A stretch of 64,000 nucleotides of DNA from Crambe crambe (taxonomy: Eukaryota > Porifera > Demospongiae > Poecilosclerida > Crambeidae), in contig OZ004595.1 of NCBI GenBank assembly GCA_963924555.1, forward strand, positions 5,264,599-5,328,598, given 5' to 3'. Below, one piece after another: positions 1-41,740 of the stretch; position 1 is the first letter of the stretch; each line of letters opens with the position of its first letter. The translations under genes and the position numbers were made by a program. The notes beneath the pieces were generated by a model. It searched no databases. It saw only the letters and a program-made list of their open reading frames with translations, and was not told the DNA's origin.

Positions 1-1163
1 AATTTAACTAGACCAATGTTACCTCCAGCACATGCATTATGTAGTAGGGATCTGCCCAAATAACCCTTGACAGTAATATCACAACCAAGCTTATTTATTA
101 GGAAAAATGCAACCTCTTTCTCTCCATATAAAGCAGCCATGTGGAGTGGTGTGTTATTTTCATCATCCCTAGTATATATATAAAAGTCAAATTTAAGTAT
201 CAGGGATCGAACTAGATTAACATTACCTCCTCTACATGCGTAATGTAGCAAGGATCTACCCAATCTACCACTGACATTAATATCACAATTGAATTCATAT
301 ATTAGACATAATGCAACCTCTTCCTTTCCACTTAAAGCAGCTACATGGAGTGGTGTGTTATTTTCATCATCCCTAACATTTATATTGGCATTGTGGTCAC
401 GTATAAGATATTGAACTAAATCAACATCACCTTTTTCACATGATAGATGTAGCAAGGACCTACCTAAATGACCCTTGACATTAATTAGAAATAATGTAAC
501 CTCTTCCTTTCCAGCCACATGAAATGGTGTGTTATTTTTATCATCCCTAGCAGTAATATCAGCATTATGAACACGTATCAGGGATTGAACTAGACTTACA
601 TTACCTCCTATAAATGCACGATGTAGCAAGGATCTACCCAAGCTACCCTTGACAGTAATATCACAGTCGAACTGATTAATTAGGAACAATGCAACCTCTT
701 TCTTTCCATGCAAAGCAGCCAAATGGAGTGGTGTGTCATTTTCATCATCCCTAGCATTGGTATTAGCATAGTGGCCAAGAGTCAAATATTGGACTAAGCT
801 AACATTACCTCCAATGCATGCATAATGAAGAATTGTTTTATTTCTTTTAGATAATACATCTAAAGGACAATGATATTCAGCCACTAGACTGAGTGCAATA
901 TCTTTCTTTCCATATAAACAGGCAACCATTAGTGGTATGCGACCACGGTTATCCTTAGCAAGCATATCAGCTTTGAACCTAGTTATTAGCATCTTAACTA
1001 TACTAAAGTGACCTCCACGACAAGCATAATGTAGTGGAGTCTGCCCATTGGAATCAGTACAGTTAACATTGTACTTGCATCTTTCCAGTAACCTTCTGAC
1101 TATATTTACTTCACCTGACTTGGCAGCTAGATGAAGAGGGGTGACATCAGTGGATGTAGCCAT
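1..1163 (-). CDS. Gene A: ankyrin-repeat protein, N-terminal part (runs off window)
   Basis: This is the 5' end of a fifth member of the ankyrin-Roc family. It reads without a stop from ATG at 1163 to the window edge, giving about 387 codons. The N-terminus (MATSTDVTPLHLAAKSG) matches genes C and D, so it belongs to the MATST 5' class. The whole visible product is ankyrin repeats with TPLHxAA and GRSLLHxAC cores, starting with the conserved block around CTDSNGQTPLHYAC. Compared with its paralogues, one repeat pair near 430-520 lacks 21 bp and 9 bp, both multiples of three, so the frame is kept and two repeats are shortened. The Roc, COR and death-fold half would lie outside the window. The family assignment is sure. 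Whether the full gene is intact cannot be judged. Confidence 0.85.
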   Translation of the reverse strand, partial: MATSTDVTPLHLAAKSGEVNIVRRLLERCKYNVNCTDSNGQTPLHYACRGGHFSIVKMLITRFKADMLAKDNRGRIPLMVACLYGKKDIALSLVAEYHCPLDVLSKRNKTILHYACIGGNVSLVQYLTLGHYANTNARDDENDTPLHLAALHGKKEVALFLINQFDCDITVKGSLGRSLLHRAFIGGNVSLVQSLIRVHNADITARDDKNNTPFHVAGKEEVTLFLINVKGHLGRSLLHLSCEKGDVDLVQYLIRDHNANINVRDDENNTPLHVAALSGKEEVALCLIYEFNCDINVSGRLGRSLLHYACRGGNVNLVRSLILKFDFYIYTRDDENNTPLHMAALYGEKEVAFFLINKLGCDITVKGYLGRSLLHNACAGGNIGLVK

Positions 1164-4100
1164 TATCTGTATAATAACATCGAATAGTCATAGCTACAAT
1201 GATTAGCTACCATGTGTACAATTTTTGTCATCTCACAATTGATTTATTTATGATTTTACATTGCCATATAGCAAAGCACAAATGAATAGCCACCATTTAA
1301 AAGATGGCAGGAGCAAAATAATATTAGCTAGTTAGATTTACAAAATATTAGACCTCACTCATGCAGTTATTGTTCCAAGTGGCAACAACTTACAAAAGAA
1401 AACACACGTTACAATCAATGAAGATGAGATATACGTGGGTAGCAGTTGACATGTGAGGAACAAGCTTGTCTGGTAGACCTGACTATTGTTATGAATCACC
1501 ACACTTACTATTAGCATTATCAGTATCAGTGTGTATCATGTGATTCCCTTTCCATACGATTGCTACATATGAAAATGTTTTTCCCATTTTGGTGAGGTGA
1601 GTATCTGGAACCTTAAATAGAACAATGCAATACTCAACAGTAGCTGTACATTAGGAAATTAAGTTGTATGGGTCAGACATCATGTTACATTGCATCAAAA
1701 AAGATGATGAACAAGTAAAGGAAAAAATATTTATTCTAAATAAAAAAGAGAAGTAGGGATGGCTGTCAGGATAAGTTAGTACTATAAGAGTTTAGCAAAA
1801 TTAGGGAATAGTTAGCATAGCTAATACACAGCTATTGTCATCAAAATTGTGCATTTGCTGATTTGTTTCGTTTCCCAGCTTCCTGAATTCCAAGGTGGTG
1901 CTAGTTTACCTCCTTAACTCATTTACACAACATCTGACTAAAAACACCTAACAACAAATGAATAGATAAAATGTAGTGATTATTTAGGACTCTCTCTGTT
2001 CTGATTATGAACACCTGTGAAGTCAGCCTTAGTTGAGTGAGGTACCTAGATGCTTATTTTTCTTGAAGAAAGATGTATGATAATCAAAAGAGAACATATA
2101 AGTATTGACAAAGTTGTGGTTATTAGTATTGGATATTTAAATAGCATTCAACTATAGAGACAATTTCCGAAATTGGAATAGCTTAGCTGAAGAAAAGCTG
2201 GATCAATAGCTGGAATTTTAGACACATGCAGCTGGATGACTGCAGCATTCATAAATGTCACTAATTAGAAGATAGACTGTGGTGTGTAGCCAGTATTGAT
2301 TGAGTATTAATTTAAAAATTAACTATAGTTGGAGCATTAATTAGAAGATTAACTGTAGTCAGTTGGTAGGAGCATCAATGAAGTGGGAGTGATAGTAAAA
2401 TATTTTTGAGGTGGATAATCGACCACATTTAATAAACATAGCTAACCACATTCTTTACAGGAAATAAGTTTAGCTGCCATAATCACCTTCATCAGGTACA
2501 GGGTTCAAAAGAATCTCTTTCTTTCTTTCCTTCCTTCTTTCTTTCTTCTCCGTCTTCTTCAATTTGAACACCTTTAAAACAATAGTGTATGAGGTTCAAA
2601 AGTTTTTAAAATTTCTTCATGATTACCATAGTAAAAATGTCTGTCAATGACTGCTTCACAGATATGGAACACATCCACTCTCAGAACTCTTGCAGTTAGA
2701 AAGGGAATATAAGGTAACATCCTCACTGTTATCAGGAGAAGTATAACGTCATCCCGACAGTCAGAATCTGTGAATAATAATACATTTTTGATGGATCATG
2801 CACACATAGCTAGTTGATATTATTACCATGAAGTATAGTTGATTGTGCTAGAGTAGAATCCACTGTAGCTCATGTATGGTGGCTGTAGTTGGATAAATAA
2901 ACTGTTGCTGGATAAACTGTAGCTGGATGCTTGAAGAACAGCAGCTAGATCTGGTTGCTGGGAGCATTAATTAGAAAATTAACTGTTGGTGGGAGCATTA
3001 TTACTGTAGCTGGTTGATGAAGTATAAACTTAATTGATAGTTGGAGCATTAATTAGAAACTTTACTGTAGCCAGTTGGCAGGAGCATTGATTAGAAACTT
3101 TACTGTAGCCAGTTGGTAGGAGCAGGAGCTGTCAGGTTGAAGCATTAGCATAATTAACTGCAGCTGGATGGCTAAGAAATTAATGGTTGTCCTTAGCCTA
3201 TGAGTTTCTTTTGAGGACTTTCTTCAGTAGCTATCCTCTGATTAATGTGAGTAGCTTGATGTGAAAGACCTAAAAATTACAATACACAATAATAGATATC
3301 ACATAATTTTATTTCCTTACCATGCATATCCTGTGACAAATTTGAAGGAGGCAACTGTAACTGAAAAAGGAATTCATCAACCAATCACTGTATGGGAGCA
3401 TTAATTTGAAGTGGGATAGTTAACTTTAGCCAGTTGGTTGAAACATTAGTAACTACGAAATTAACTGCAGCCAGATCATTATACAAGCTAAGCTGGGATT
3501 TTCTTCAGAGGGTTTTCTTCATTATATCACAATTCTATACTCAATCATTTGAATGTTGATTTGAAGACCTGAGAATTACAATACACAATTATTATACTTA
3601 CGTATCACACATCAATATTTATACCTTACCATGCATAGCTTCTGATGAAGTTGAATAATATGTTTAAAGGAGGCAATTGGGTGTAGCTGGGAAAATTTCT
3701 GATACTTATAGTTAGCTTGGACAAATCCACATGTTTGGTCATGTTTACTGGTTTGACTTTTCTAGGGATTTTTGGGATAGTAATCGGTAACAGCTTGTGG
3801 AAGTCACAATAAGTCAAAGATGATGTTTTGACCAGCAAGACTAGACATGGGAAAGGGGAAACAAACAGAAGGTGGTTAGCTAGCCTCCAATGGTCATTTA
3901 ACTTACCACTAAAATAGCTATATGCACACACCAATATCCATAGGGCATTCAAAGTAAACTGATAGCCAGTAGCAGTTTATAATGCAGAGTGGATATTAAC
4001 TTTTCTCTGGCAGTCAGTCACATGATTATACCTACATGATAATAATGTACATAATGAGTCTACAATACATTGCACAACACATCATGACTTACCTTGGTCA

Positions 4101-4825: not shown

Positions 4826-7800
4826 CTAGATATACTGAAACAGTGAGATTTTTCTGAGTTTCTGGGACAACTGATCATAAGTAGAAGAGGGCCCTTCCTT
4901 GGAGGTCCACTTCTTCAACATGGAGAGAGCTTGGACTTGTAGGGACTGCCCCTCCCCCTCTGTCTTCACCTTGTCAATCTCTTCACTGGTCAGGGAGAGG
5001 AGGGAGGCCAGGGACGGCCATTTGGGCCCAACCACTTCAGCAAGCAAATCCAGGAAGTCGTCATCTGGTGTGGAATCATGTCCGTCAGGGTCAAGCAGCT
5101 TCTTCTGGAGCTCAATATGAACACCTGCAAAGAGAGCAGTACATAGTACCTATGTAGCCAAATCTTCACATACATTCTATTTAGCTCACAAACCTTTGAG
5201 CATGAGGAGGTGGTCATTGTTCTATACTCAACTGGAATGTTGGGGGTGACTAGTTCCCCCATTAGCTAAGTGCAGCTGTCAGTATGAATCTAACTATGTA
5301 ACTAGGTTATTATTCACTCACTGTGTTCTTCCTCAATCTCATTTGCAGTGGCATTTTTGCCTATCTCCTTCAGTGCTTCCACAAGATGCCACCAGCATGG
5401 AGGGTCCAGGGAGGAGCTCATCCAAGCCCTCACCACTTCCCTTGTTCTCCGATCTGCATCACTAGGGTGGTTTAATTCTATGGCCTCAAGAACTCCTTGG
5501 GGGATTTTGAGGTGGAGACCAAGGTCAAATAGAGGTTTAACTATGTCTTTAAGATAATGGAGGACTGAGCCAAAATCAATAGGAAACAAGTTGTCCCAAT
5601 GAGTGAGTTTACGCATGCATGTCAGCTTTGAACGCTCCATGTACTTTTTCCCTGAAACGCTGAGAACCACCTCCCTATCCTTTGGAGATATAAGTGCCAT
5701 TTCTACATCTTTCATGGGAAATAAATGATCTTTATCAAGGTTATATGATTGATGAATCACATCTAAAAGATAAAACTCAGGTTTGATGGAGTGGCAGAAC
5801 TCTGCCTTTGCCTCCATCACACAACAGATTATATCATTAAAGACACTAATACAAATCTCTGTTCTATCCTTAACACTCTTAGTGATGACAACAACTCCCT
5901 TACTGTCATCAACCAATTCAACCATACACTCCACCCCTTTCTCACTCAACCAGTGCACCCCAGTCTTCCACATGGTGCAAAACCTCCCAATATGTTCATT
6001 ACAGCGAATAAATGCTTGATGTTGTCTATCAGGATGGGAGAGGGCAAATCTGAAAACCATTCTGAGGAGAAGGACATGAAGGAAACGTGGGGGGAAGTAG
6101 TCATTAGGATCAGTGCATGAAGCAAACCAACCAATGCTGTAACTATTATCGGGAGGAGTTCTCCATGACACCTCACTCTTGTCTCCTAAAATGAGAGCTG
6201 GAAAGAACAGAAGAGATTGGGACCCAAGTGAAGAGTGTGATACGGAAGAGAAAACTACCACATCTCTTTGTTTAATTTCTTGGCAGTACTGAAGTCGAAT
6301 AAGGACTTCCTTTGTGCAATATTCAGGCAAGATTTTTAATAGAAGATTTTCTGGAATAACTCCAATATCAAGTGATAATACACCTTCAAGTTTGCACATA
6401 TCCTTTAACCTTTGAACTCCATATGAAGAAAATAAAGCTTTGTGTACTATGTTGGTAAGTTTTGAAATATTCAATACTATGTGAGGGTTACTCTCATCAG
6501 CTTTCTCTCCCACTAATAATAAAATGCCCACCTCATGGAGTTCATGCAGATATGGTACAAGTGTTTCAGTTTTGTTTGGTAACTGTACCCCAGTGTCCTC
6601 TATGTGGGACACTATGGTCTCTACAGAACAAGCAACGACATTGTTAAAATCCTTTTCCAGCAACCCTAAAAGTATGCTTGCTTCAATTGTTAGTTTGTAA
6701 CGCTCAGATTTGCTGATCATGCTTGTGATTTTTTTCTGGAGTCTACCTATTTCTTTAGATCCAGGTTTGCGGCAGTCAAATGTAAAATACCCCATATACT
6801 GAACAAGTGTATGTGATTCAGAAATATCCTTGTGGAATTGTGCAAATCTTTCTCTGCATTTCTTTACCACTTCTTTAGTAACTGAATCAGAGTGGCTACC
6901 AACTGCAATGAGGAAAGGCTTTTCACTGAATTTCTGGTGTTGTATGAATGAAAACCAATAGTGCAGCAATTTCTCTGTGGTCATCACATCCTTCCTTAAA
7001 TCAGCTACAACAATGAATATGTTGTCACCTTTTCTTGAGGAAGCAAGATTCTCAAGGATGGCAGCATGTGAGGAGTAGTACTCAGGGTCTCCAGCAAAGT
7101 CATAGAACATGACTCTCCCATAGTGTTTACTGACATGGATACTGGGGATTATACCGGCAGTGTGGGGAGGCACTACAGCTTCAGACACTTTCCGTAGAAA
7201 ATCAAAGAAACCCTCTCTTCTAAGGGACTCTATGAGAGTGCTCTTCCCTGCACCAGGGTTACCAATGACAAATACCCTAGTCATGTGTTGTGCACCCGAA
7301 TACTTCTTTTTAGCATGTTTTTGCATGATGCCATAATTGACCAGTATTTTATCTTGGCTTAGTTTTATATATTGGTCTAATACTAATCTTGAATCACCAG
7401 TTGCTAGGTCAATAGGAGTCTTTCCAGAAGCATTTCTTATCAGGATAGGAGCATCATGCTGTAAAAGAGTCTTAATACATTCACTATGGCCATGTACTGA
7501 AGAGATATGAAGAGGAGTGTTACCATCCTCATCAACAATCAAGGGAGACATGAATTTACAAAGTGTCTTTGTGAGATTAAAGTGTCCATTATGACATGCT
7601 GAGTGTAGCGATGAGTAACCATTACCACCTCTGACATTAATATCACAACCAAACTTATCAATTAGAAATGATGTTATCTTTTCATCCCCACTCAATGCTG
7701 CTACATGAAGTGGCATGTTATTTTCATCATCCCTAGCATTGATGTCAGCATTGTAGTCACATATAAGAGACTGAACTAAACTAATATTTCCTCCTCTACA

Positions 7801-10800
7801 TGCTTCGTGTAGCAAGGATCTCCCTAAACCACCTCTGACATTAATATCACAACAACTAATATCATTGATTAGAGATAATACAACCTCTTCCTTCCCATTC
7901 AAGCATGCTACATGGAGTGGTGTGTTATTGTTATCATCCCTAACATTGGCATCAGCATGGTAGTCATGTATCAGGGATTGAACTAAAATAAGATTACCTC
8001 TTTCACATGCTCTATGTAGGATGAATGTACCACTAACATTAATATCACACTCAAACTCATTAATCAGGGACAATGCAACTTCTTTTTCCCCATAAATTAT
8101 TGCTACATGGAGTGGTGTGTGTTTTTCATCATCCCTAGCATTGACATCAGCATTGTGGTTATTTATTAATGATCGAACTAAACTGACATTACTTCCTATG
8201 CTTGCTTGATGGAGTAAAGATCTACCTGAAGAACCCCTGATATTAATATCACAACCAAACTCATTTACTAGAGAAAATACAAGCTGTTCATTCCCATTTA
8301 ATGCTGCCACATGGAGTGGTGTGTTATTATAATCATCCATGACATTAATATCAGCATTGTAGTCTGTTATTAAAGATCGAACCAAATTAAAATCACCTTT
8401 TTCACATGCTCTGTGTAGCAAGGATTTACCAATAACACCTTTATCATTAATATCACAACCAAATTCATTGATCAGACATAAAATAACCTCTTTATTCCCA
8501 TTTAATACAGCCAAATTGAGTGGTGTGTCATTATAATCATCCATAGCATTAATATCAGAATTATGAGCAAGTATTAGGAGTCGAACTAAAAAAGAATCAC
8601 CTAGTTCACATGCTTGATGTAGCAAAGTTCTACCTGAAGCACCTCTGACATTAATATCACAACCATGCTCATTTATTAAATACAATGTAACCTTTTTTTC
8701 CCCATATAATACTGCCACATGTAGTGGTGTATCATTATCATCATCCCTAGCATTAATATCAGCATTATGGTCACATATCAGGGATTTAACTAGACTGACA
8801 TTACCTCCTTTACATGCTAGATGTAGTAGAGATCTTCCTAAGTAATTCCTGACATTAATATCACAACCGAAATCATTAATTAGAGACAATGCAACCTCTT
8901 CCTTTCCACGTGATACTGCCATATGGAGTGGTGTATTATTCCAAGCATCCCTAATATTGATATCAGCATTATACTCACGAATTAGGGATTGAACTAGACT
9001 AAGATCACCACTTGCACATGCTTTATGCAATAAGGAAATACCTAGTCGATTGCACCTATTAATATCACACCCATGCTCATCAATCAGATACAATGCAACT
9101 TCTTTTTGTCTGTTCAAAGCAGCCACATGTATAAGTGTGTTATCTTTATCATCCCTAGCACTGATATCAGCACTGTGGTCATTTATTAATGATTGAACTA
9201 AACTGACATTACCTCCTATGCATGCTTGATGGAGCAAAGATCTACCTGAAGAACCCCTGACATTAATACCACAACCAAACTCATTTATCAAAGACGATAC
9301 AACCTCTTTTTGCCCATTCAAAGCAGCCACATGTACAGGTGTGTTACCTTCATCATCCCTAGCACTAGAATTGTGGTCATTTATTAATGATTGGATTAAA
9401 CTGACATTACCTCCTGTGCATGCTTGATGGAGCAAAGATCTACCTGAAGAACCCCTGACATTAATATCACAACCAAACTCATTTATCAGAGACAATGCAA
9501 CCTCTTTTTGCCCATTCAAAGCAGCCACATGTACAGGTGTGTTATCTTCATCATCCCTAGCACTGATATCAGCATTGTGGTCATTTATTATTGATTGAAC
9601 TAAACTGACATTACCTCCTATGCATGCTTGATGGAGCAAAGATCTACCTGAAGAACCCCTGACATTAATACCACAACCAAACTCATTTATCAAAGACGAT
9701 ACAACCTCTTTTTGCCCATTCAAAGCAGCCACATGTACAGGTGTGTTAAAATCATCATCCCTAGCACTAGAATTGTGGTCATTTATTAATGATTGGATTA
9801 AACTGACATTACCTCCTATGCATGCTTGATGGAGCAAAGATCTACCTGAAGAACCCCTGACATTAATATCACAACCAAACTCATTTATCAGAGACAATGC
9901 AACCTCTTTTTGCCCATTCAAAGCAGCCACATGTACAGGTGTGTTATCTTCATCGTCCTTATCACTGATATCAGCATTTTGGTCATTTATTAATGATTGG
10001 ACTAAACTGACATTACCTCCTATGCATGCTTGATGGAGCAAAGATCTACCTGAAGAACCCCTGACATTAATATCACAACCAAACTCATTTATCAGAGACA
10101 ATGCAACCTCTTTTTGCCCATTCAAAGCAGCCACATGTACAGGTGTGTTATCTTCATCGTCCTTATCACTGATATCAGCATTGTGGTCATTTATTAATGA
10201 TTGGACTAAACTGACATTACCTCCTATGCATGCTTGATGGAGCAAAGATCTACCTGAAGAACCCCTGACATTAATATCACAACCAAACTCATTTATCAGA
10301 GACAATGCAACCTCTTTTTGCCCATTCAAAGCAGCCACATGTACAGGTGTGTTACCTTCATCATCCCTAGCACTAGAATTGTGGTCATTTATTAATGATT
10401 GGACTAAACTGACATTACCTCCTATGCATGCTTGATGGAGCAAAGATCTACCTGATGAACCCCTGACATTAATATCACAACCAAACTCATTTATCAGAGA
10501 CAATGCAACCTCTTTTTGCCCATTCAAAGCAGCCACATGTACAGGTGTGTTATCTTCATCGTCCTTATCACTGATATCAGCATTTTGGTCATTTATTAAT
10601 GATTGGACTAAACTGACATTACCTCCTATGCATGCTTGATGGAGCAAAGATCTACCTGAAGAACCCCTGACATTAATATCACAACCAAACTCATTTATCA
10701 GAGACAATGCAACCTCTTTTTGCCCATTCAAAGCAGCCACATGTACAGGTGTGTTATCTTCATCATCCCTAGCACTGATATCAGCATTGTGGTCATTTAT

Positions 10801-11451
10801 TATTGATTGAACTAAACTGACATTACCTCCTATGCATGCTTGATGGAGTAAAGATCTACCTGAAGAACCTCTGACATTAATATCACAACGAAACACAATT
10901 ATCAGAGACAATGCAACCACTTTTTGCCCATTCAAAGCAGCCACATGTACAGGTGTGATATCTATATTATAGCCAAACTCATTAAAGAGACAAAATGCAA
11001 CATCTTCTTTTCCTTGATGTGCTGCCACATGGAGTGGTGTGCTGCCAACAGGCAGGCAGTCATGTATCAATGTTTGTACTAAACTAGCACTACCTCCAAT
11101 ACATGCATAATAAAGAACCTTTCTATTGATAGTTTCATTTAAATCTAAAGGACAATCATATTCAGTCACTAGACTGACTGCAACATCTTTCTGTCCATAC
11201 AAACATGCAGTCATTAGTGGTATGCAACCATTCTTATCCTTAATAACCATATTGGCTTTGAAATTAGATATTAGCCATCTTACCATATCTAAGTGACCTG
11301 CAGCACAAGCATAATGCAGTGGAGTCTGCCCATTGGAATCAGTACAGTCTATATTATCATACTTGCCACTTCCCAACAACCTTCTGACCTTGTTCATGTC
11401 ACCTGACTTGACAGCCATATGGAGGGCAGTCAAAGTAGTAGAGGAGGCCAT
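4826..11451 (-). CDS. Gene B: ankyrin–Roc–COR–double death-fold protein (2142 aa)
   Basis: Two exons: 11451-5322 and 5124-4826. The donor is CACA|GTGAGT and the acceptor TTTGCAG|GTGTTC. The joint is phase 1 and gives ...EEHS-VHIELQKK. I chose ATG 11451 (MASSTT); the frame extends upstream only to a TTG. Roughly 39 ankyrin repeats fill residues 1-1355. The P-loop GNPGAGKST is at about 1396, the switch-like DFAGDPEYY at about 1448 and VGSHSD, in the place of the guanine-specificity loop, at about 1515, as in Roc GTPases. A COR-like region follows. A first death-fold segment ends exon 1 (about 1974-2043) and exon 2 encodes a second one with the W...L..LLSLTSEEI pattern. By analogy with other Roc-COR and death-domain proteins it should be a cytoplasmic GTPase-controlled adaptor or sensor. 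Ligand and partners are unknown. Reading through the intron would add only two codons and drop the second death fold. Confidence 0.85.
9110..10965 (-). repeat. Near-identical 204/198-bp ankyrin-pair array inside gene B
   Basis: Nine tandem units encode paired ankyrin repeats with the core GSSGRSLLHQACIGGN. A fixed landmark (GCTTGATGG on the plus strand) recurs at 9224, 9422, 9626, 9824, 10028, 10232, 10430, 10634 and 10838, giving spacings of 198, 204, 198, 204, 204, 198, 204 and 204 bp. The 6-bp difference is a deletion of two codons (NADISARD versus NSSARD). Units differ at only a few bases, far less than the flanking ankyrin repeats of the same gene, which points to recent expansion or homogenisation. 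Confidence 0.93.
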
Positions 11452-14689: not shown

Positions 14690-15285
14690 TGGTTGGTTGG
14701 AAGTATTATAGTCGATTGGTCGAAGCATTAATTGGAAGATCAACTGTACCCAAGATTAACTGTAACCTGTTAATTCAAAGATTAACTGTAGCCTGTCAAT
14801 TAGAAGATTAACTGTAGCCGGTTAATTAGAAGATTAACTGTAGCCGGTTGGTTGGAGCATCAATTGGAAGATCAACTGCAGCCGGTTGGTTGGAGCATCA
14901 ATTGGAAGATCAACTGCAGCCGATTGGTTGGAGCATCAATTGGAAGATCAACTGTAGCCGGTTGGTTGGAGCATCAATTGGAAGATCAACTGCAGCCGGT
15001 TGGTTGGAGCATTAATTAGAAGATTAACTGTAGCCGGTTGGTTGGAGCATCAATTGGAAGATCAACTGCAGCCAGTTGGTTGGAGCATCAATTGGAAGAT
15101 CAACTGCAGCCAGTTGGTTGGAGCATCAATTGGAAGATCAACTGCAGCCGGTTGGTTGGACCATTAATTAGAAGATTAACTGTAGTCAGTTTGTTGGAGC
15201 ATTAACTGTAGCTCGGTTGGTTGGAGCATTAATTAGAAGATTAAATGTAGCTGGTTGGTTGGAGCATTATTAGAAGATTAACTTG
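14690..15285. repeat. 38-bp minisatellite
   Basis: Tandem units of about 38 bp, e.g. GGTTGGTTGGAGCATCAATT followed by GGAAGATCAACTGCAGCC. Two variants (CATCAATTGGAAGATCAACTG and the CATTAATTAGAAGATTAACTG type) alternate. The same motif recurs, diverged, in other spacers (about 2.3, 3.0, 13.7, 22.2 and 31.7 kb, and inverted at 42.2 kb), so it is a dispersed family of the cluster that has expanded here. Confidence 0.9.
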
Positions 15286-20994: not shown

Positions 20995-21175
20995 TATCTG
21001 TATGCACAGATGAATAGTATTAATATGCTACTGTAGTGTAACACTGAGCAAGACAGCAGATAATTTCACAGCAATTTTTTTTTTAATCAAATGGAACACT
21101 TCCGGTAAATTTTCACATCCATCATGCTCACATCATTTAAAAATGAGATTTAGCTACAAATTTTAATTCTATATA

Positions 21176-24983: not shown

Positions 24984-27900
24984 CTAGACATACTGAAACA
25001 GTGAGATTTTTCTGAGTTTCTGGGACAACTGATCATAAGTGGAGGAGGCCCCTTCCTTGGAGGTCCACTTCTTCAACATGGAGAGGGCTTGGACTTGTTG
25101 GGACTGCTCCTCCCCCTCTGTCTTCACCTCGTCAATCTCTTCACTGGTCAGGGAGAGGAGGGAGGCCAGGGATGGCCATTTGGGTCCGACCACTTCAGCA
25201 AACAACTCCACGAAGTCATCATCTGGTGTGGAATCACATCTGTCAGGGTCAAGTAGCTTCTTCTGGAGCTCAATATGAACACCTGCAAAGAGAGCAGTGC
25301 ATAGTACCTATGTAGTCAAATCTTCACATACATTCTATTTAGCTCACAAGTAGTATCCAGCATTTGAGCATGAGGAGGTGGTTATTGTTCTATACTCAAC
25401 TGGAATGTTTGAGGTCCCATTAGCTAAGTGCAGCTGTCAATCTAAATCTAATATTATGTAACTAGGTTATTATTCACTTACTGTGTTCTTTCTCAATCTC
25501 ATTTGCAGTGGCTTTTTTGCCTATCTCCTTCAGTGCTTCTACGAGATGCCACCAGCATGGAGGGTCCAAGGAGGAGCTCATCCATGCCCTCACCACTTCC
25601 CTTGTTCTCCGATCTGCATCACTAGGGTGGTTTAATTCTATGGCCTCAAGAACCCCTTCAGGGATTTTGAGGTGGAGACCAAGGTCAAATAGAGGTCTAA
25701 CTATGTCTTTAAGGTAATGGAGGACTGAACCAAAATCAATAGGAAACAAGTTGTCCCAATGAGTGAGTTTACGCATGCATGTCAGCTTTGAACGCTCCAT
25801 GTACTTTTTCCCTGAAACACTGAGAACCACCTCCCTATCCTTTGGAGATATAAGTGCCATTTCTACATCTTTCATGGGAAACAAATGATCTTTATCAAGG
25901 TTATATGATTGACCAATCACATCTAAAAGATAAAACTCAGGTTTGATGGAGTGGCAGAACTCTGCCTTTGCCTCCATCACACAACAGATTACATCATTAA
26001 AGACACTGATGCAAATCTCTGTTCTATCCTTAACACTCTTAGTGATGACAACAACTCCCTTACTGTCATCTACCAATTCAACCATACACTCCACCCCCTT
26101 CTCACTCAACCAGTGCACCCCAGTCTTCCACATGGTGCAAAACCTCCCAATATGCTCATTACAGCGAATAAGTGCTTGATGTTGTCTATCAGGATGGGAG
26201 AGGGCAAATCTGAAAACCATTCTGAGGAGAAGGACATGAAGGAAACGTGGGGGGAAGTAGTCATTAGGATCAGTGCATGAAGCAAACCAACCAATGCTGT
26301 AACTATTATCGGGAGGAGTTCTCCATGACACATCACTCTTGTCTCCTAAAATGAGAGCTGGAAAGAACAAAAGAGATTGGGCCCCAAGTGAAGAGTGTGA
26401 TATGGAAGAGAAAACTACCACATCTCTTTGTTTAATTTCTTGGCAATACTGAAGTTGGATAAGGACTTCCTTTGTACAATATTCAGGCAAGATCTTTAGT
26501 AGAAGATTTTCTGGAATAACACCGATATCAAGTGATAATACACTTTCAAGTTTACATATATCCTTTAAATTTTGAACTCCATCTGAAGAAAATAAAACTT
26601 TGTGTACTATGTTGGTAAGTTTTGAAATGTTCAATACTATGTGAGGGTTACTCTCGTTAGCTCTCTCTCCTACTAATAATAAAATGCCCACCTCATGGAG
26701 TTCCTGTAAATATGGTATGAGTGTTTCAGTTTTGTTTGGTAACTGTACCCCAGTGTTCTCTATGTGTGACACTATGATCTCTACAGAACAAGCAGTGACA
26801 TTGTTAAAATCCTTTTCTAGCAACCCTAAAAGTATGCTTGCTTCAATTGTTAGTTTGTAGCACTTGGATTTGCTGATCATACTTGTGATTTTTTTCTGGA
26901 GTCTACCTATTTCTTTAGATCCAGGCTTGCGGCAGTCAAATGTAAAATACCCCATATACTGAACAAATATATGTGATTCAGAAATATCTTTGTGGAATTG
27001 TGCAAATCTTTCACTGTACTTTGTTACCACTTCTTTAGTGACTGAATCAGAGTGGCTACCAACTACAATGAGGAAAGGCTTTTCACTGAATTTCTGGTGT
27101 TGTATGAATGAAAACCAATAGTGCAGCAATTTCTCTGTGGTCATCACATCCTTCCTTAAATCAGCTACAACAATGAATATGTTGTCACCTTTTCTTGAGG
27201 AAGCAAGATTCTCAAGGATGGCAGCATGTGAGGAGTAATACTCAGGGTCTCCAGCAAAGTCATAGAACATGACTCTCCCATAGTGTTTACTGACATGGAT
27301 ACTGGGGATTATACCGGCAGTGTGGAGAGGCACTACAGCTTCAGACACTTTCCGTAGAAAATTAAAGAAACCCTCTCTTCTAAGGGACTCTATGAGAGTG
27401 CTCTTCCCTGCACCAGGGTTACCAATGACAAATACCCTAGTCATGTGTTGTGCACCAGAATACTTCTTTTTAGCATGTTTTTGCATGATGCCATAATTGA
27501 CCAGTATTTTATCTTGGTTTTGTTTTATATATTGGTCTAATACTAATCTAGCATCACCAGTTGCTAGGTCAATAGGAGTCTTCCCAGAAGCATTTCTTAT
27601 CAGGATAGGAGCACCATGCTGTAATAGAGTCTTAATACATTCATTATGGCCACGTATTGAAGAGATATGAAGAGGAGTGTTACCATCCTCATCAACAATC
27701 AAGGGAGACATGAATTTACAAAGTGTCTTTGTGAGATTAAAGTGTCCATTATGACATGCTGAGTGTAGCAATGAGTAGCCATTACCACCTCTGACATTAA
27801 TATCACAACCAAATTTATCAATTAGAAACAATGTTATCTTTTCATCCCCACTCAATGCTGCTACATGGAGTGGCATGTTATTCTCATCATCCCTAGCATT

Positions 27901-30345
27901 GATGTCAGCATTGTAGTCACATATAAGAGACTGAACTAAACTAATATTTCCTCCTCTACATGCTTCGTGTAGCAAAGATCTCCCTAAACCACCTCTGACG
28001 TTGATATCACAACTAAATTCATTGATAAGAGAAAATGCAACCTCTTCCTTCCCATTCAATGCTGCTACATGGAGTGGCGTGTTATTACTATCATCCCTAG
28101 CATTGGTATCAGCATGATAGTCATGTATCAGGGATTGAACTAAAATAAGATTACCTCTTTCACACGCTTTATGTAGGATGAATGTACCACTAACATTAAT
28201 ATCACAATCAGATTCATTAATTAGGGACAATGCAACTTCGTTTTCCCCATAAATTACTGCTACATGGAGTGGTGTGTAATTCTCATCATCCAAGATATTG
28301 ATATCAGCATTGTGGTCATTTATTAATGATCGAACTAAACTGACATTACCTCCTCTGCATGCTTGATGGAGCAAAGATCTACCTGAAGAACCCCTGATAT
28401 TAATATCACAACCAAACTCATTTAATAAAGACAATGCAAGTTGTTCATTCCCATTTAATGCTGCCACATGGAGTGGTGTGTTATTATAATCATCCATGAC
28501 ATTAATATCAGCATTGTAGTCTGCTATTAAGGATTGGACCAAATTAAAATCACCTTTTTCACATGCTATGTGTAGCAAGGATTTACCAAAAACACCTTTA
28601 TCATTAATATCGCAACCAAATTCTTTGGTCATACAAATAACAACCTCTTTTACCCCACTCAATACAGCCAAATGGAGTGGTGTGGCATTGTAATCATCCA
28701 AAACATTACTAAGAGCATTGTATTCCTGTATTAGGGATCGAACTAGATAATAATCACCTTTATCACATGCTTGATGTAGCAAAGTTCTACCTGAAGCACC
28801 TCTGACATTAATATCACAACCAAATACATGAATAAGAGAGAATACAATATTTTTTCTTCCATTTAATACAGCCACATGGAGTGGTGTGTCATCGTAATCA
28901 TCCATAGCATTAATATCAGCATTGTAATCACATATTAGGGATTGAACTAAATAAGGATCACCTTTATCACATGCTTGATGTAGCGAGGTTCTACCTGCAG
29001 CACCTCTGACATTAATATCACAACCAAATGCACGAATAAGAGAGAATACTATTTTATCTCTTCCATTTAATGTTGCTACATGGAGTGGTGTGTTATTTTC
29101 ATCATCCCTAGCATTAACATCAGCACTGTAGTCATGTATCAGAGATTTAACTAAACTAATATTACCATTTTCACATACTTTATGCAGTAAGGTTCTACCT
29201 GAAGCACCTCTGACATTAATATCACAATCAAAATCATTGATAAGAGAAAATACAACTCTTTTTCTTCCATTCAGTGTTGCTACATGGAGTGGTGTGTTAT
29301 TTTCATTGTCCCTAGCATTGATGTCAGCATTGTGGTCACATATCAGAGTTTGAACTAGACTAAGATTATCACTTTCGCATGCTTTGTGTAATAAGGATCT
29401 ACCTGAACCACCCCTCACATTGATATCACAACCATGTTCATTTATTAAATACAATGTAACCTCTTCTTTCCCACTTAATGCTGCCACATGTAGTGCTGTA
29501 TCGTTATTATCATCCCTAGCATTAATATCGACATTGTGGTCACATATCAGAGTTTGCACTAGACTAAGATTATCACTTTCGCATGCTTTGTGTAATAAGG
29601 ATCTACCTGAACCACCTCTGACGTTGATATCACAACCATGCTCATCTATTAAATACAGTGTAACCTCTTCTTTCCCATTTAATGCTGCTACATGGAGTGG
29701 TGTGTTATTTTCATTGTCCCTAGCATTGATGTCAGCATTGTGGTCACGTATCAGAGTTTGCACTAGACTAAGATTATCACTTTCGCATGCTTTGTGTAAT
29801 AAGGATCTACCTGAACCACCCCTCATATTGATATCACAACCATGCTCATTTATTAAATACAGTGTAACCTCTTCTTTCCCATTTAATGCTGCCACATGTA
29901 GTGGTGTATCGTTATTATCATCCCTAGCATTAATATCGACATTGTGGTCACATATGAGGGACCGAACTAGACTAACATTACCTCCAATACATGCATAATG
30001 AAGAACTCTTCTGTTATTATTATCTTTTACATCTAGAGGACAAAGGTGATCAGTCACTAGACTGAGTGCAACATCTCTCTGTCCATATAAACATGCAGTC
30101 ATTAGTGGTATGCAACCACTACTATTTTTAAAATACATACAAGCATTGAACTCAGCTATCAGCACCATAACTATATCTAAATGACCTGCAGCACAAGCAT
30201 AATGGAGTGGAGTCTGCCCATTGGAATCAGTACAGTCTACATTATACTCATAACTTTCCAGTAACCTTCTGACTTCAGTCAAATCACCTGACTTGGCAGC
30301 TAGATGAAGGGGGGTGACATCAGTGACTGAGGTGGATGTAGCCAT
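24984..30345 (-). CDS. Gene D: ankyrin–Roc–COR–double death-fold protein (1720 aa), apparent hybrid
   Basis: Two exons: 30345-25482 and 25282-24984. The donor CACA|GTAAGT is a perfect consensus, the acceptor is TTTGCAG and the joint is phase 1. About 27 ankyrin repeats precede the P-loop (GNPGAGKST, about residue 974); the switch DFAGDPEYY, VGSHSD, COR-like region and two death-fold segments follow as in B. The 5' end and flank are MATST class like gene C, while roughly the last 3.3 kb of exon 1 (below about 28.8 kb) and exon 2 are nearly identical to gene E (ends EKEHS; ELFAEVVGPKWPS in exon 2). This makes D look like a recombinant of C-type and E-type genes. The ankyrin region also holds an internal repeat pair with RGGSGRSLLHKACESDNLSL. 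Frame intact throughout. Confidence 0.85.
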
Positions 30346-34514: not shown

Positions 34515-37500
34515 CTAGACATACTGAAACAGTGAGATTTTTCTGAGTTTCTGGGACAACTGATCATAAGTGGAGGAGGCCCCTTCCTTGGAGGTCCACT
34601 TCTTCAACATGGAGAGGGCTTGGACTTGTTGGGACTGCTCCTCCCCCTCTGTCTTCACCTCGTCAATCTCTTCACTGGTCAGGGAGAGGAGGGAGGCCAG
34701 GGATGGCCATTTGGGTCCAACCACTTCAGCAAACAACTCCACGAAGTCATCATCTGGTGTGGAATCACATCTGTCAGGGTCAAGTAGCTTCTTCTGGAGC
34801 TCAATATGAACACCTGCAAAGAGAGCAGTGCATAGTACCTATGTAGTCAAATCTTCACATACATTCTATTTAGCTCACAAGTAGTATCCAGCATTTGAGC
34901 ATGAGGAGGTGGTTATTGTTCTATACTCAACTGGAATGTTTGAGGTCCCATTAGCTAAGTGCAGCTGTCAATCTAAATCTAATATTATGTAACTAGGTTA
35001 TTATTCACTTACTGTGTTCTTTCTCAATCTCATTTGCAGTGGCTTTTTTGCCTATCTCCTTCAGTGCTTCTACGAGATGCCACCAGCATGGAGGGTCCAA
35101 GGAGGAGCTCATCCATGCCCTCACCACTTCCCTTGTTCTCCGATCTGCATCACTAGGGTGGTTTAATTCTATGGCCTCAAGAACCCCTTCAGGGATTTTG
35201 AGGTGGAGACCAAGGTCAAATAGAGGTCTAACTATGTCTTTAAGGTAATGGAGGACTGAACCAAAATCAATAGGAAACAAGTAGTCCCAATGAGTGAGTT
35301 TACGCATGCATGTCAGCTTTGAACGCTCCATGTACTTTTTCCCTGAAACACTGAGAACCACCTCCCTATCCTTTGGAGATATAAGTGCCATTTCTACATC
35401 TTTCATAGGAAACAAATGATCTTCATGAAGGTTATATGATTGACCAATCTCATCTAAAAGATAAAACTCAGGTTTGATGGAGTGGCAGAACTCTGCCTTT
35501 GCCTCCATCACACAACAGATTACATCATTAAAGACACTGATGCAAATCTCTGTTCTATCCTTAACACTCTTAGTGATGACAACAACTCCCTTACTGTCAT
35601 CTACCAATTCAACCATACACTCCACCCCCTTCTCACTCAACCAGTGCACCCCAGTCTTCCACATGGTGCAAAACCTCCCAATATGTTCATTACAGCGAAT
35701 AAGTGCTTGATGTTGTCTATCAGGATGGGAGAGGGCAAATCTGAAAACCATTCTGAGGAGAAGGACATGAAGGAAACGTGGGGGGAAGTAGTCATTAGGA
35801 TCAGTGCATGAAGCAAACCAACCAATGCTGTATCTATTATCGGGAGGAGTTCTCCATGCCACATCACTCTTGTCTCCTAAAATGAGAGCTGGAAAGAACA
35901 AAAGAGATTGGGCCCCAAGTGAAGAGTGTGATATGGAAGAGAAAACTACCACATCTCTTTGTTTAATTTCTTGGCAATACTGAAGTTGGATAAGGACTTC
36001 CTTTGTACAATATTCAGGCAAGATCTTTAGTAGAAGATTTTCTGGAATAACACCGATATCAAGTGATAATACACTTTCAAGTTTACACATATCCTTTAAA
36101 TTTTGAACTCCATCTGAAGAAAATAAAGCTTTGTGTACTATGTTGGTAAGTTTTGAAATGTTCAATACTATGTGAGGGTTACTCTCGTTAGCTCTCTCTC
36201 CCACTAATAATAAAATACCCACCTCATGGAGTTCCTGTAAATATGGTATGAGTGTTTCAGTTTTGTTTGGTAACTGTACCCCAGTGTCCTCTATGTGGGA
36301 CACTATGGTCTCTACAGAACAAGCAATGACATTGTTAAAATCCTTTTCTAGCAACCCTAAAAGTATGCTTGCTTCAATTGTTAGTTTGTAACGCTTGGAT
36401 TTGCTGATCATGCTTGTGATTTTTTTCTGGAGTCTACCTATTTCTTTAGATCCAGGCTTGCGGCAGTCAAATGTAAAATACCCCATATACTGAACAAATA
36501 TATGTGATTCAGAAATATCTTTGTGGAATTGTGTAAATCTTTCACTGTACTTTGTTACCACTTCTTTAGTGACTGAATCAGAGTGGCTACCAACTACAAT
36601 GAGGAAAGGCTTTTCACTGAATTTCTGGTGTTGTATGAATGAAAACCAATAGTGCAGCAATTTCTCTGTGGTCATCACATCCTTCCTTAAATCAGCTACA
36701 ACAATGAATATGTTGTCACCTTTTCTTGAGGAAGCAAGATTCTCAAGAATGGCAGCATGTGAGGAGTAATACTCAGGGTCTCCAGCAAAGTCATAGAACA
36801 TGACTCTCCCATAGTGTTTACTGACATGGATACTGGGGATTATACCGGCAGTGTGGAGAGGCACTACAGCTTCAGACACTTTCCGTAGAAAATCAAAGAA
36901 ACCCTCTCTTCTAAGGAACTCTATGAGAGTGCTCTTCCCTGCACCAGGGTTACCAATGACAAATACCCTAGTCATGTGTTGTGCACCAGAATACTTCTTT
37001 TTAGCATGTTTTTGCATGATGCCATAATTGACCAGTATTTTATCTTGGTTTTGTTTTATATATTGGTCTAATACTAATCTAGCATCACCAGTTGCTAGGT
37101 CAATAGGAGTCTTCCCAGAAGCATTTCTTATCAGGATAGGAGCACCATGCTGTAACAGAGTCTTAATACATTCATTATGGCCACGTACTGAAGAGATATG
37201 AAGAGGAGTGTTACCATCCTCATCAACAATCAAGGGAGACATGAATTTACAAAGTGTCTTTGTGAGATTAAAGTGTCCATTATGACATGCTGAGTGTAGC
37301 AATGAGTAGCCATTACCACCTCTGACATTAATATCACAACCAAACTTATCAATTAGAAACAATGTTATCTTTTCATCCCCACTCAATGCTGCTACATGGA
37401 GTGGCATGTTATTCTCATCATCCCTAGCATTGATGTCAGCATTGTAGTCACATATAAGAGACTGAACTAAACTAATATTTCCTCCTCTACATGCTTCGTG

Positions 37501-40458
37501 TAGCAAAGATCTCCCTAAACCACCTCTGACGTTGATATCACAACTAAATTCATTGATAAGAGAAAATGCAACCTCTTCCTTCCCATTCAATGCTGCTACA
37601 TGGAGTGGCGTGTTATTACTATCATCCCTAGCATTGGTATCAGCATGATAGTCATGTATCAGGGATTGAACTAAAATAAGATTACCTCTTTCACACGCTT
37701 TATGTAGGATGAATGTACCACTAACATTAATATCACAATCAGATTCATTAATTAGGGACAATGCAACTTCGTTTTCCCCATGAATTACTGCTACATGGAG
37801 TGGTGTGTAATTCTCATCATCCAAGATATTGATATCAGCATTGTGGTCATTTATTAATGATTGAACTAAACTGACATTACCTCCTATGCATGCTTGATGG
37901 AGCAAAGATCTACCTGAAGAATCCCTGATATTAATATCACAACCAAATTCATTTAATAAAGACAATGCAAGTTGTTCATTCCCATTTAATGCTGCCACAT
38001 GGAGTGGTGTGTTATTATAATCATCCATGACATTAATATCAGCATTGTAGTCTACTATTAAGGATTGGACCAAATTAAAATCACCTTTTTCACATGCTAT
38101 GTGTAGCAAGGATTTACCAAAAACACCTTTATCATTAATATCACAACCAAATTCTTTGGTCATACAAATAACAACCGCTTTTACCCCACTCAATACAGCC
38201 AAATGGAGTGGTGTGGCATTGTAATCATCCAAAACATTACTAAGAGCATTGTATTCCTGTATTAGGGATCGAACTAGATAATAGTCACCTTTATCACATG
38301 CTTGATGTAGCGAGGTTCTACCTGAAGCACCTCTAACATTAATATCACAATCAAAATCATTGATAAGAGCGAATAAAACTCTTATTCTTCCATTCAGTGT
38401 TGCTACATGGAGTGGTGTGTTATTTTCATCATCTCTAGCATTAATATCAGCATTATGGTCACGTATCAGGGATTTTACTAGACTAATATTACCATTTTCA
38501 CATACTTCATGCAGTATGGTTCTACCTGAAGCACCTCTGACATTAATGTCACAATCAAAATCATTGATAAGAGAAAATACAACTCTTTTTCTTCCATTCA
38601 ATGCTGCTACATGGAGTGGTGTGTTATTTTCATTGTCCCTAGCATTGATGTCAGCATTGTGGTCACGTATCAGACTTTGAACTAGACTAAGATTATCACT
38701 TTCACATGCTTTGTGTAATAAGGATCTACCTGAACCACCCCTCACATTGATATCACAACCATGCTCATTTATTAAACACAATGTAACATCTTTTCCCCCA
38801 TTTAATGCTGCAACATGGAGTGGTGTATCATTGTTATCATCCCTAGCATTAATATCATCATTATGGTCATGTATCAGGGATTGAACTAGACTGACACTAC
38901 CTATTTTACATGCTAGATGTAGCAAGGATCTGCCAAAAGAACCCCTGACATTAATATCACAACCAAACTCATTAATTAGAGCCAATGCAACTTCTTTTTG
39001 TTCATTCAGCACTGCTACATGGAGTGGTGTGTTATCTTTATCATCCCTAACATTAATATCAGCATTGTGGTCACGTATCAAGGATTGAACTAAACCAATA
39101 ATGCCTCTAGCACAAGCACTATGCAACAAGGATCTACCAAAATCACCCTTGAGAGTAATGTCACAACCAAACTCATTAATTAGAGACAATGCAACTTTTT
39201 CTTGCCCATTCAGCACTGTTACATAGAATGGTGTGTTATCTTCATCATCCCTAGCACTAATATCAGCACTGTGGTCACTTATTAATGATTGAACTAAACT
39301 GACATTACCTCGTATGCATGCTTGATGGAGCAAAGATCTACCTGAAGAACCCCTGACATTAATATCACAACCAAACTCATTTATCAGAGATGATATAACT
39401 TCTTTTTGCCCATTCAAAGCAGCTACATGTATAGGTGTGTTATCTTCATAATCCTTATCACTGATATCAGCATTGTGGTCATTTATTAAAGATTGAACTA
39501 AACTGATATTACCTCCTATGCATGCTTGATGGAGCAAAGATCTACTTGAAGAACCCCTGATGTTAATATCACAACCAAACTCATTTATCAGAGACAATGC
39601 AACCTCTTTTTGCCCATTCAAAGCAGCCACATGTACAGGTGTATTATCTTCATCATCCCTAACATTGATATCAGCATTGTGGTCATTTATTAATGATTGA
39701 ACTAAACTGATATTACCTCCTATGCATGCTTGATGGAGCAAAGATCTACCTGAAGAACCCCTGATGTTAATATCATAACCAAACTCATTTATCAGAGACA
39801 ATGCAACCTCCTTTTGCCCATTCAAAGCAGCCACATGTACAGGTGTATTATCTTCATCATCCCTAGCACTGATATCAGCATTGTGGTCATTTATTAATGA
39901 TTGGACTAAACTGACATTACCTATTATGCATCCTTGATGGAGCAAAGATCTACCTAAACAAAATGGAGTATCTCTGATCCCAAACTCATTAATGAGACAT
40001 AATCCAACCATTTCTTTTCCTAGACGTGCTGCCACATGGAGTGGTGTGCTTCCAACAGGCAGGTTGTCATGTATCAATGTTTGTACTAAACTAGCATTAC
40101 CTACAATGCATACAAGATGAAGGATTTTTCTATTGATAATATCTTTCAAATCTAAAGGACAATCATATTCAGTCACTAGACTGACTGCAACATCTTTCTG
40201 TCCATACAAACATGCAGTCATTAGTGGTATGCAACCATAATTATCCTTAACAACCATATTGGCTTTGAAATTAGATATTAGCCATCTGACCATATCTAAG
40301 TGACCTGCAGCACAAGCATAATGCAGTGGAGTCTGCCCATTGGAATCAGTACAGTCTATATCATCATACTTGCCACTTCCCAACAACCTTCTGACCTTGT
40401 TCATGTCACCTGACTTGACAGCCATATGGAGGGCAGTCGAAGTAGTAGAGGAGGCCAT
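34515..40458 (-). CDS. Gene E: ankyrin–Roc–COR–double death-fold protein (1914 aa)
   Basis: Two exons: 40458-35013 and 34813-34515, with donor GTAAGT, acceptor TTTGCAG and the phase-1 joint shared by the family. The MASSTTSTALHMAVKSGD start and 5' flank match gene B, whereas the C-terminal half matches D. About 33 ankyrin repeats include four to five B-like GSSGRSLLHQACI pairs near 39,200-39,950. The P-loop GNPGAGKST is near residue 1168; just after it the usual LIESLRREG reads LIEFLRREG, a Ser-to-Phe change adjoining the nucleotide site. The switch, SHSD loop, COR-like region and both death folds are intact. The N-terminal ankyrin part around KEMVGLCLINEFGIRDTPFCLG is irregular, as in the matching part of B. 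Confidence 0.85.
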
Positions 40459-40889
40459 ATTATTTTTGCAAAGAAAGAGCCAGTAGTAAGAGAACTTGCT
40501 TTCCCAAAGTTAGTTTTTTGAATAGTGCAGGAGAGTGGAAAGGCATTACCATAAGGATTATCACAATAATAACAAAATTCATAGAGTAGTTAGCTAGTCA
40601 CATGATCAAAAGAAATGCATTGTGTATAAGTTTACACTATTAGCCATATTCAGACGTTTAACCACAACTATTACAGACAGGCATGAAATGTGGGAGCTAC
40701 AGGATCATTATTATCTTTCAGTGATCATAGGGGAGGCTCCACAGGAGTGTGATCCCCAAGGTTCCCAACTTTAATATATAGCTCTATAATAATAATCCTA
40801 TAATAGTAATAACCAAAAACTCCTCAAGAATGCACTAAATTCGAAATACATCTGGCTCATGAGACAAACTTTGACAAAAGCTACAAGAT
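40459..40889. other. 5' flank of gene E
   Basis: Paralogous to the 5' flank of gene B (AAAGAAAGAGCCAGTAGTA at both). It continues with an AATAATAAT-rich tract at about 40,790-40,820 that also appears at 11,800-11,835 upstream of B. No gene seen. Confidence 0.6.
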
Positions 40890-41740
40890 CTTTATGAGGA
40901 TGAATGTACCACTAACATTAATATAACTCATTAATCATGGACAATGCAACTTTGTTTTACCCATAAATTATTGCTACATGGAGTGGTGTGTAATTTTCAT
41001 CATCCAAGATATTGATATCAGCATTGTGGAATGATTGAACTAAACTGACATTACCTCCTCTGCATTCTCTATGGAGTAAAGATCTACCAAAACAACCCCT
41101 GATGTTAATATCATAACCAAACTCATTTAATAAAGACAATGCAAATTGTTCATTCCCATTTAATACGGCCACATGGAGTGGTGTGTCATTGTAATCATCC
41201 ATGACATTAATATCAGCATTGTAGTCTGTGATCGGACTAAATTAAAATCACCTTTTTCACATGCCATGTGTAGCAAGGATTTACCAAAAACACCTTTATT
41301 ATTAATATCACAACCAAATTCCTTGATCACATACCACTAATGACTGCATGTTTATATGGATGGAAAGATGTTGCACTTAAGTCTAGTGACTGATCACAAT
41401 TGTCCTCTAGATACAGAACAGTTCTTCATTATGCATGTGCTGGAGATTACAGTAACACACTACTCCATTTGGCTGTATTAAATAAAGAGGTAATTTTATG
41501 TCTGACCACTACTATTTTTTAAATACATACAAGTATTGAACTCAGTTATCATCATCTTAACAATATTTAAGTGACCTGCAGCACAAGCATAATGGAGTGG
41601 AGTCTTGCCATTGGAATCAGTACAGTCTACATTATACCTGTAACTTCCAGAAACCTTCTGACTTGAATCGAATCACCTGACTGGCAGCTAGATGAAGGGG
41701 GGGGTGACATTAGTGACTGAGGTGGATGTAGCCGTTACCT
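40890..41740 (-). pseudogene. Pseudogene F: decayed MATST-class ankyrin gene with internal inversion
   Basis: Minus-strand ankyrin relic about 0.85 kb long. Its right end matches the first exon of C/D, but the start codon is ACG at about 41,733 (plus strand GCCGTTACC where paralogues have GCCATTACC) and indels break the frame in the first repeats. The middle, about 41,330-41,505, reads as ankyrin on the plus strand instead (PLMTACLYGWKDVAL and TVLHYACAGD), with a stop inside. Minus-strand ankyrin resumes at 41,335 and below and ends near 40,890 in a damaged repeat. No Roc or death-fold sequence remains. It cannot make the family protein. Confidence 0.85.

Follow-up and report, generated by a model that had tools for sequence, protein, structure and literature searches.

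In DAPK1, ankyrin repeats are followed by a ROC-COR module and a death domain. Vertebrates possess four ROCO proteins, MFHAS1, DAPK1, LRRK1 and LRRK2, among which the DAPK1 group is the one with a death domain and without leucine-rich repeats (LRR) (PMC6337361). The brown-algal LRR-ROC-COR genes, in which a constant ROC-COR switch bears a repeat array that varies, have been proposed to be immune receptors (PMC11378527). In sponges, an expansion of NLRs is described from Dysidea avara, with 126 genes combining NACHT and LRR (PMC12909245), and Amphimedon has 357 NCOA6-clade TRADD-N proteins for which an immune role is proposed (PMC8195603). Among the literature matches listed, no title or abstract start described a sponge family joining ankyrin, ROC, COR and death domains, and the word 'Roc' was not found in the available part of PMC12345144. 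Here, a stretch of 64,000 nucleotides from the sponge Crambe crambe (GCA_963924555.1, contig OZ004595.1, positions 5,264,599 to 5,328,598; referred to as the window) was analysed together with the 143 Mb genome, whose contig C18 contains the window. It carries a cluster of genes, g0 to g4, each predicted to encode a long ankyrin array, a ROC GTPase, a probable COR region and two death domains.

We consider it moderately probable that the g0-g4 family encodes cytoplasmic recognition receptors that use a ROCO switch, and an immune role is suggested for them. This reading is carried by the architecture, the intact reading frames, the amplified and chimeric arrays, the gap in synonymous divergence between the array and the core (ROC, COR-like region and first death domain) of g0, and an excess of replacements in the ankyrin groove of a sister cluster located on contigs C17 and C1.

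Organisation of the gene cluster

Four minus-strand genes, g1 (4826-11451), g2 (16241-20994), g3 (24984-30345) and g4 (34515-40458), were delimited. Their stop-to-stop open reading frames (ORFs), also on the minus strand, span 5314-11535 (2073 aa), 16741-21027 (1428 aa), 25474-30378 (1634 aa) and 35005-40509 (1834 aa), respectively. A fifth open ORF, g0, at 3-1187, continues past the left edge of the window.

3..1163, minus strand: g0, 5′ part, ATG at 1163; the remainder continues beyond the left edge (1619 aa and 27 repeats in the whole ORF)
5322..11451, minus strand: g1 exon 1, 40 ankyrin repeats, ROC, COR-like region, death domain 1
4826..5124, minus strand: g1 exon 2, death domain 2 and stop
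16749..20994, minus strand: g2 exon 1, 21 ankyrin repeats, ROC, COR-like region, death domain 1
16241..16539, minus strand: g2 exon 2, death domain 2
25482..30345, minus strand: g3 exon 1, 27 ankyrin repeats, ROC, COR-like region, death domain 1
24984..25282, minus strand: g3 exon 2, death domain 2
35013..40458, minus strand: g4 exon 1, 33 ankyrin repeats, ROC, COR-like region, death domain 1
34515..34813, minus strand: g4 exon 2, death domain 2

In each of g1-g4 the array, the GTPase, the COR-like region and death domain 1 are held by a single giant exon, followed by a phase 1 intron, about 200 bases long and canonical at both ends, and then by exon 2. Calculated from the exon limits, the predicted proteins have 2142, 1514, 1720 and 1914 residues for g1 to g4. 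No conserved coding exon was recognised in the spacers, though distant upstream exons or non-coding 5′ exons may exist. An earlier reading made from the sequence alone (the sequence-only reading) had described four intact genes with a common core and about 21, 27, 33 and 39 repeats. Compared with the g3 core, those of the other three genes indeed showed 98, 94 and 95% identity, and a hidden Markov model (HMM) built from the cluster's own repeats counted 21 in g2, 27 in g3, 33 in g4 and 40 in g1, as well as 27 in g0. The spacers also contain a 38-bp minisatellite with a related unit (14824-15283, 22214-22323, 31701-31810 and 3043-3124), apparently duplicated along with the genes.

GTPase, COR-like region and death domains

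The domains following the array were located in g3 as listed.

26884..27441, minus strand: ROC GTPase (core residues 30-215 aligned to the ROC of LRRK2; G1 GNPGAGKS, G3 DFAGDPEYY, G4 GSHSD)
25720..26883, minus strand: COR-like region, the interval from ROC to death domain 1, by collinear profile extension
25498..25719, minus strand: death domain 1 (core residues 604-677), FADD-like

Thirty cores were aligned, taken from 32 loci of the family less two with an in-frame stop (L021 and L032), and Pfam matches to them were reported at E up to 1. The key residues of G1, G3 and G4 were invariant in all 30 cores, every one of which matched Pfam Roc (best E 7.9e-9). The full-length window proteins all matched Roc as well, two of the four above the 27-bit cut-off (27.7 and 28.2 bits) and two narrowly under it (26.5 and 26.2 bits), and a profile of the core found the ROC of LRRK2 in a PDB set (E 6e-7). 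A ROC domain in the ankyrin genes is supported by these matches.

The region between ROC and death domain 1, of about 385 residues, reads PPRFLHVLLLR in g3 where the COR families compared have PPGF(F/W). Pfam COR gave no match in five window proteins, 17 separate COR regions and eight further members, nor was it among the matches listed (25 of 41 families) in the scan of aligned cores, and no PDB chain was matched by a profile of the region. When ROC and COR were joined in one profile, six sequences of the C. crambe genome that bear COR aligned to it in order over 315 columns, as far as the COR-B motif. This profile scored 128.7 versus 108.7 for ROC alone, with eight of eight column shuffles at 110.0-115.6 and the reversed profile at 110.1. 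The region may be termed COR-like, and its identity as COR is probable on indirect support.

For death domain 1, single proteins gave little: Pfam E was 0.068 in one of the four window proteins and no match was listed for the other three. Among the aligned cores, 22 of 30 matched Pfam Death (best E 2.5e-8), and the core profile found the death domain of FADD in the PDB set (E 4e-8). Exon 2 was sought by tblastn in the 32 loci (L048-L054 lay outside this search) and recovered in all of them, in two pieces in L023. Leaving out L023 and L022, which has an in-frame stop, gave an alignment of 30 members, each of which matched Pfam Death (for g3, 47.1 bits versus a cut-off of 22.6). The genome-wide search with Pfam Death also recovered exon 2 of g1-g4, and the best PDB match of the exon 2 profile was the death domain of RIPK1 (E 6.5e-8). 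Two different death domains per gene, one FADD-like and one RIPK1/ankyrin-like, are supported.

Both death-fold segments of the sequence-only reading were thus recovered, and of its Roc-COR switch the ROC part was upheld by Pfam and the LRRK2 match, the COR part being probable by collinear extension without a Pfam match. With ankyrin repeats, ROC and two death domains confirmed and COR probable, its description, a variable repeat region joined to a switch that has a death-fold tail, is accurate. The likeness it drew to NLRs holds for the design and fails for identity. NLR identity was ruled out, as Pfam matched neither NACHT nor LRR in the window proteins, where only sub-threshold P-loop families (AAA, nSTAND) appeared beside ROC. 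Identity with classical ankyrins was likewise ruled out by the absence of a Pfam ZU5 match, ROC standing in place of ZU5-UPA, and no Pfam match to TRADD-N was found in the four exon 1 proteins or in exon 2.

Rearrangement of the ankyrin arrays

The ankyrin repeat is 34 residues long and two repeat types, A and B, alternate, which gives a DNA period of 204 bp. Repeat-by-repeat comparison of the DNA delimited three segments.

9150..10866 (approximate), minus strand: g1 repeats 6-22, recent internal amplification of the two-repeat unit
39246..40458 (approximate), minus strand: g4 5′ part, repeats 0-11, with g1 as best match among the other genes (75-98%)
34515..38736 (approximate), minus strand: g4 3′ part, repeats 17-32 with core, intron and exon 2, g3-like

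Each of the 17 repeats 6-22 of g1 has 97-100% DNA identity to another g1 repeat, and by this measure the g1 array has been enlarged by recent duplication of two-repeat units. Over the first 100 codons, g4 shows 98.0% identity with g1 and 79.4% identity with g3. Units 17-31 match g3 best among the other genes (89-100%), and unit 32 is 99% identical to g2 and 98% to g3. Towards the 3′ end, g4 and g3 share 99.3% identity in the last repeats and in ROC, 98.6% in the COR-like region and death domain 1, and 99.9% in the downstream stretch. Judged by these identities, g4 is a chimera of g1-like and g3-like genes.

Divergence, selection and the ankyrin groove

In most gene pairs, the upstream region and the array diverge while the core and 700 bases downstream remain 93-97% identical. 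Of these 700 bases, which take in the intron, exon 2 and the first part of the spacer, about 400 are non-coding; identity is 99.9% between g3 and g4 and 93-95% between the other pairs. Upstream, 600 bases of g2 and g3 are 98.1% identical over the aligned columns, with gaps. Synonymous (dS) and non-synonymous (dN) divergence of the arrays was compared over ten repeats, in register from the core. Between g0 and g1-g4, dS was 0.58-0.64 in the array and 0.08-0.12 in the core. The low core dS and the near-identical downstream bases indicate that the likeness of the cores owes much to recent duplication or exchange, beyond purifying selection. Core dN/dS was 0.25-0.37 by cluster. Along the C18 cores, dS was uneven, 0.04-0.05 at alignment columns 50-150, which hold the switch regions, and 0.40 at columns 300-350.

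The dN/dS comparison proposed by the sequence-only reading gave a divided answer. Over the ten repeats, array dN/dS in the window cluster was 0.38-0.63, that is, net purifying selection, while an excess of replacements at the groove was found in the C17/C1 sister cluster. The groove, which we take to be positions 2, 3, 5, 13 and 14 of the repeat, was fixed before any result was obtained, and unit pairs below 75% or 80% DNA identity were excluded from the per-position counts. When pairs of different genes were pooled, omega (the ratio dN/dS) in the groove versus the rest was 0.72 versus 0.39 for type A and 1.54 versus 0.47 for type B. With the repeats in register, type B of C17/C1 gave 2.21 versus 0.47, a groove value matched by 0.18% of five-position sets, with a bootstrap range of 1.28-3.27 and 400 of 400 replicates above 1; the highest-ranked positions were 10, 2, 3, 13 and 5. 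Type A of the same cluster gave 1.16 versus 0.38 (matched by 0.06% of sets).

The family across the genome

The core had at least 65 matches in the genome, 18 on C18, 20 on C17, 19 on C15, 5 on C14, 2 on C1 and 1 on C6 as listed, which is a lower bound and is read as 64 loci, since two of the matches fall in one ORF. All but two (63 of 65) were without an in-frame stop, and their open frames ranged from 501 to 4065 residues. A tree of the family, with 38 rows, unites the C18 genes in a single group, places the C1 genes within C17 and the C6 gene next to C14, and sets one distant C17 gene apart. The window cluster (C18, 5.249-5.302 Mb) comprises six genes on the minus strand. About 140 kb away, a second C18 cluster (5.44-5.59 Mb) comprises 12 genes on the plus strand, so that the two point away from each other; in the second, one core and one exon 2 have an in-frame stop and one exon 2 is broken.

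Pfam COR-A gave 150 scored matches among 339 candidates in the genome, 149 of them above the cut-off, and none of the 150 fell in the window's cluster. Counted by eye, 28 are located on C1 (8.1-9.4 Mb) and 21 on C3 (7.49-7.83 Mb); further loci were seen on C5, C8, C9 and C11, many in large clusters. Six COR-A loci were sampled (L042-L047), in which five ORFs carry COR-A above the cut-off. L045 combines COR with Ig and death domains, its COR-A falling narrowly below the cut-off on rescan (32.2 versus 35.3 bits), and in L042 a death domain is encoded by a downstream ORF. Two of the six loci thus carry a death domain, one of these with Ig domains as well; of three downstream ORFs that looked death-domain-like by eye, one matched Pfam Death and two did not. 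L046 (C13:7354501-7360500) is an LRR-ROC-COR gene with both COR-A and COR-B by Pfam and, by eye, ankyrin-like exons upstream and the start of a kinase downstream, an LRRK-like arrangement.

In a prokaryote genome collection, two peptide patterns found a single relative, JACERO010000092.1, a contig of 3,960 bp in the Nitrosopumilus metagenome-assembled genome (MAG) 'HM_N'. Ankyrin repeats, ROC and death domain 1 are encoded there, separated from death domain 2 by an intron-like gap in the same position as in the window genes. Exon 2 scored above its Pfam cut-off, whereas Roc, at 19.1 bits, and death domain 1, at 17.7 bits, did not reach theirs; query residues 1-684 were matched, with 48% identity in the best segment. 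The tree nests it within the family at moderate support (87/86); its branch is long, and its placement was flagged as unsure. Because the layout is the same and an apparent intron sits at the same place, we read the contig as misbinned host DNA, and it is probably DNA of another sponge contaminating the archaeal MAG. One of the genomes in a study of Thaumarchaeota from sponges came from Hymedesmia methanophila (PMC7848895), and HM_N may be the MAG associated with that sponge. A bacterial or archaeal origin of the family was rejected, the only relative found by the two patterns being probable sponge DNA, and so was a viral origin, one scan of viral contigs having found no relative.

Three further features were recorded. 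At 60762-61617 of the window, a short-unit repeat, rich in Gly, Val and Pro on the plus strand and open on both strands, is probably a minisatellite, and at 61690-61959 (plus strand) an ORF contains a C2H2 zinc finger narrowly below the Pfam cut-off (24.2 versus 25.2 bits). Elsewhere, L062 (C15:882001-883100) is a silicatein-alpha-like exon (best PDB match 6zq3), carrying CGAS at the site that reads CGSC in the cathepsin-like gene L061, and similar matches lie nearby on C15. The presence of this exon agrees with a demosponge genome and supports the word 'sponge' in the sequence-only reading.

A putative receptor family and its alternatives

As cytoplasmic recognition receptors, the proteins would bind ligands, either microbial or markers of self and non-self, in the ankyrin groove. 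Binding would alter the nucleotide state or the dimerisation of ROC-COR, and the pair of death domains thereby released would seed homotypic assembly, leading to death or an NF-kB-type response. Two causes would keep the output half constant: the use of a single pathway by all copies and homogenisation through recombination.

Several results weigh against this reading. Among themselves, g1, g2 and g3/g4 had an array dS of only 0.15-0.18 versus 0.08-0.11 in the core, and between g3 and g4 there was no gap (0.023 versus 0.019). The set of groove positions and its numbering follow designed ankyrin proteins. When changes were counted on a tree, omega in the groove versus the rest was 0.74 versus 0.44 for type A and only 1.12 versus 0.57 for type B, each groove value being reached by 0.78% of all five-position sets, and in single-site tests over the whole family none was significant after correction. 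In C18, the groove of type B reached only 0.96 versus 0.53 (4.3% of sets) and type A had no excess (0.44 versus 0.42, 41% of sets). In type B of C17/C1, the synonymous rate was also higher at the groove (0.238 versus 0.149), by which the local ratio becomes about 1.4 instead of 2.2. The COR profile alone scored 19.2, within the range of its shuffles (14.4-20.8), and NF-kB-type consensus sites were not in excess in the window (3 found, 4.4 expected). The counts support groove diversification in the C17/C1 sister cluster; the effect is weak to absent in C18, and it falls short of proof of positive selection.

Among the alternatives, the best surviving is that the genes are DAPK1-like regulators of cell death or the cytoskeleton, which we find unlikely. 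The array would then dock endogenous partners, ROC-COR would set the level and the death domains would relay stress, the copies being dosage or tissue-specific paralogues. Such a role would agree with the position of DAPK1 as the LRR-free, death-domain-bearing ROCO group (PMC6337361) and with the net purifying selection on the core and on the compared repeats of the window cluster, but at least 65 clustered core matches, chimeric arrays and the groove bias of the sister cluster exceed what is usual for housekeeping scaffolds.

It is distinctly improbable that the variation is little functional and owed to genome mechanics, with 204-bp units and gene-plus-spacer units of about 10 kb expanding by unequal crossing-over. 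Sequence outside the coding exons has indeed been duplicated too (upstream of g2 and g3, and in the 700 bases downstream) and minisatellites occur in the spacers, yet 63 of 65 core matches lack a stop, core dN/dS is 0.25-0.37, splice sites and exon 2 are conserved, and the same layout recurs in a contig probably from another sponge. Least credible of the alternatives is an allorecognition repertoire, in which recombining arrays would serve as self markers that determine, through the same switch and death domains, whether sponge individuals fuse or reject each other: it draws on the same facts as the receptor reading, and allo-incompatibility in sponges is named in PMC8195603, but no signal peptide or membrane segment was seen by eye in the four ORFs (no predictor was run).

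If the receptor reading is extended beyond the window, demosponges might hold a separate intracellular receptor repertoire, which we put forward only tentatively. Its switch would be a GTP-driven ROC-COR instead of an ATP-driven NACHT, its array would be diversified by two-repeat duplication and cassette exchange, and its homogenised half with two unlike death domains would form a self-contained signalling seed. Together with about 150 COR-A loci, ROCO proteins could then constitute a main arm of sponge recognition.

Comparison with described systems

The order of the parts is like that of DAPK1, the ankyrin repeats preceding the GTPase part and a death domain following it. Like DAPK1 (ROCO group 3), the sponge genes combine ROC and a probable COR region with a C-terminal death domain and have no LRR (PMC6337361). 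Unlike DAPK1, they have 21-40 repeats, a second death domain on its own exon and dozens of clustered copies. No kinase family of Pfam was matched in the four exon 1 proteins, and no conserved coding exon was recognised in the spacers. By domain content, the design is of ROCO type, with a layout closest to DAPK1 minus the kinase.

The brown-algal genes use LRR, with one repeat per exon and exon shuffling, whereas the sponge genes use ankyrin repeats, with array and core in one giant exon, and their arrays change by unit duplication and exchange (PMC11378527). LRR-ROC-COR being the only brown-algal layout given in that source, a death domain would be absent there. With the Amphimedon TRADD-N proteins, the family shares death-like domains joined to ankyrin repeats, as is often the case in Amphimedon, but the domain order is reversed and a GTPase switch sits in the middle (PMC8195603). 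With animal NLRs it has in common a repeat sensor, a nucleotide switch, a death-fold signalling part and a large repertoire (PMC12909245). It differs from them in that a ROC GTPase replaces NACHT, ankyrin repeats replace LRR, and the death domains are C-terminal and occur twice.

If the receptor reading is true, an early-branching animal would have used the ROC-COR switch as a receptor platform, in parallel with the NLRs and the candidate ROCO receptors of brown algae. The scale in the sponge, at least 65 ankyrin-ROC core matches and about 150 COR-A loci, compares with four ROCO proteins in vertebrates (PMC6337361).

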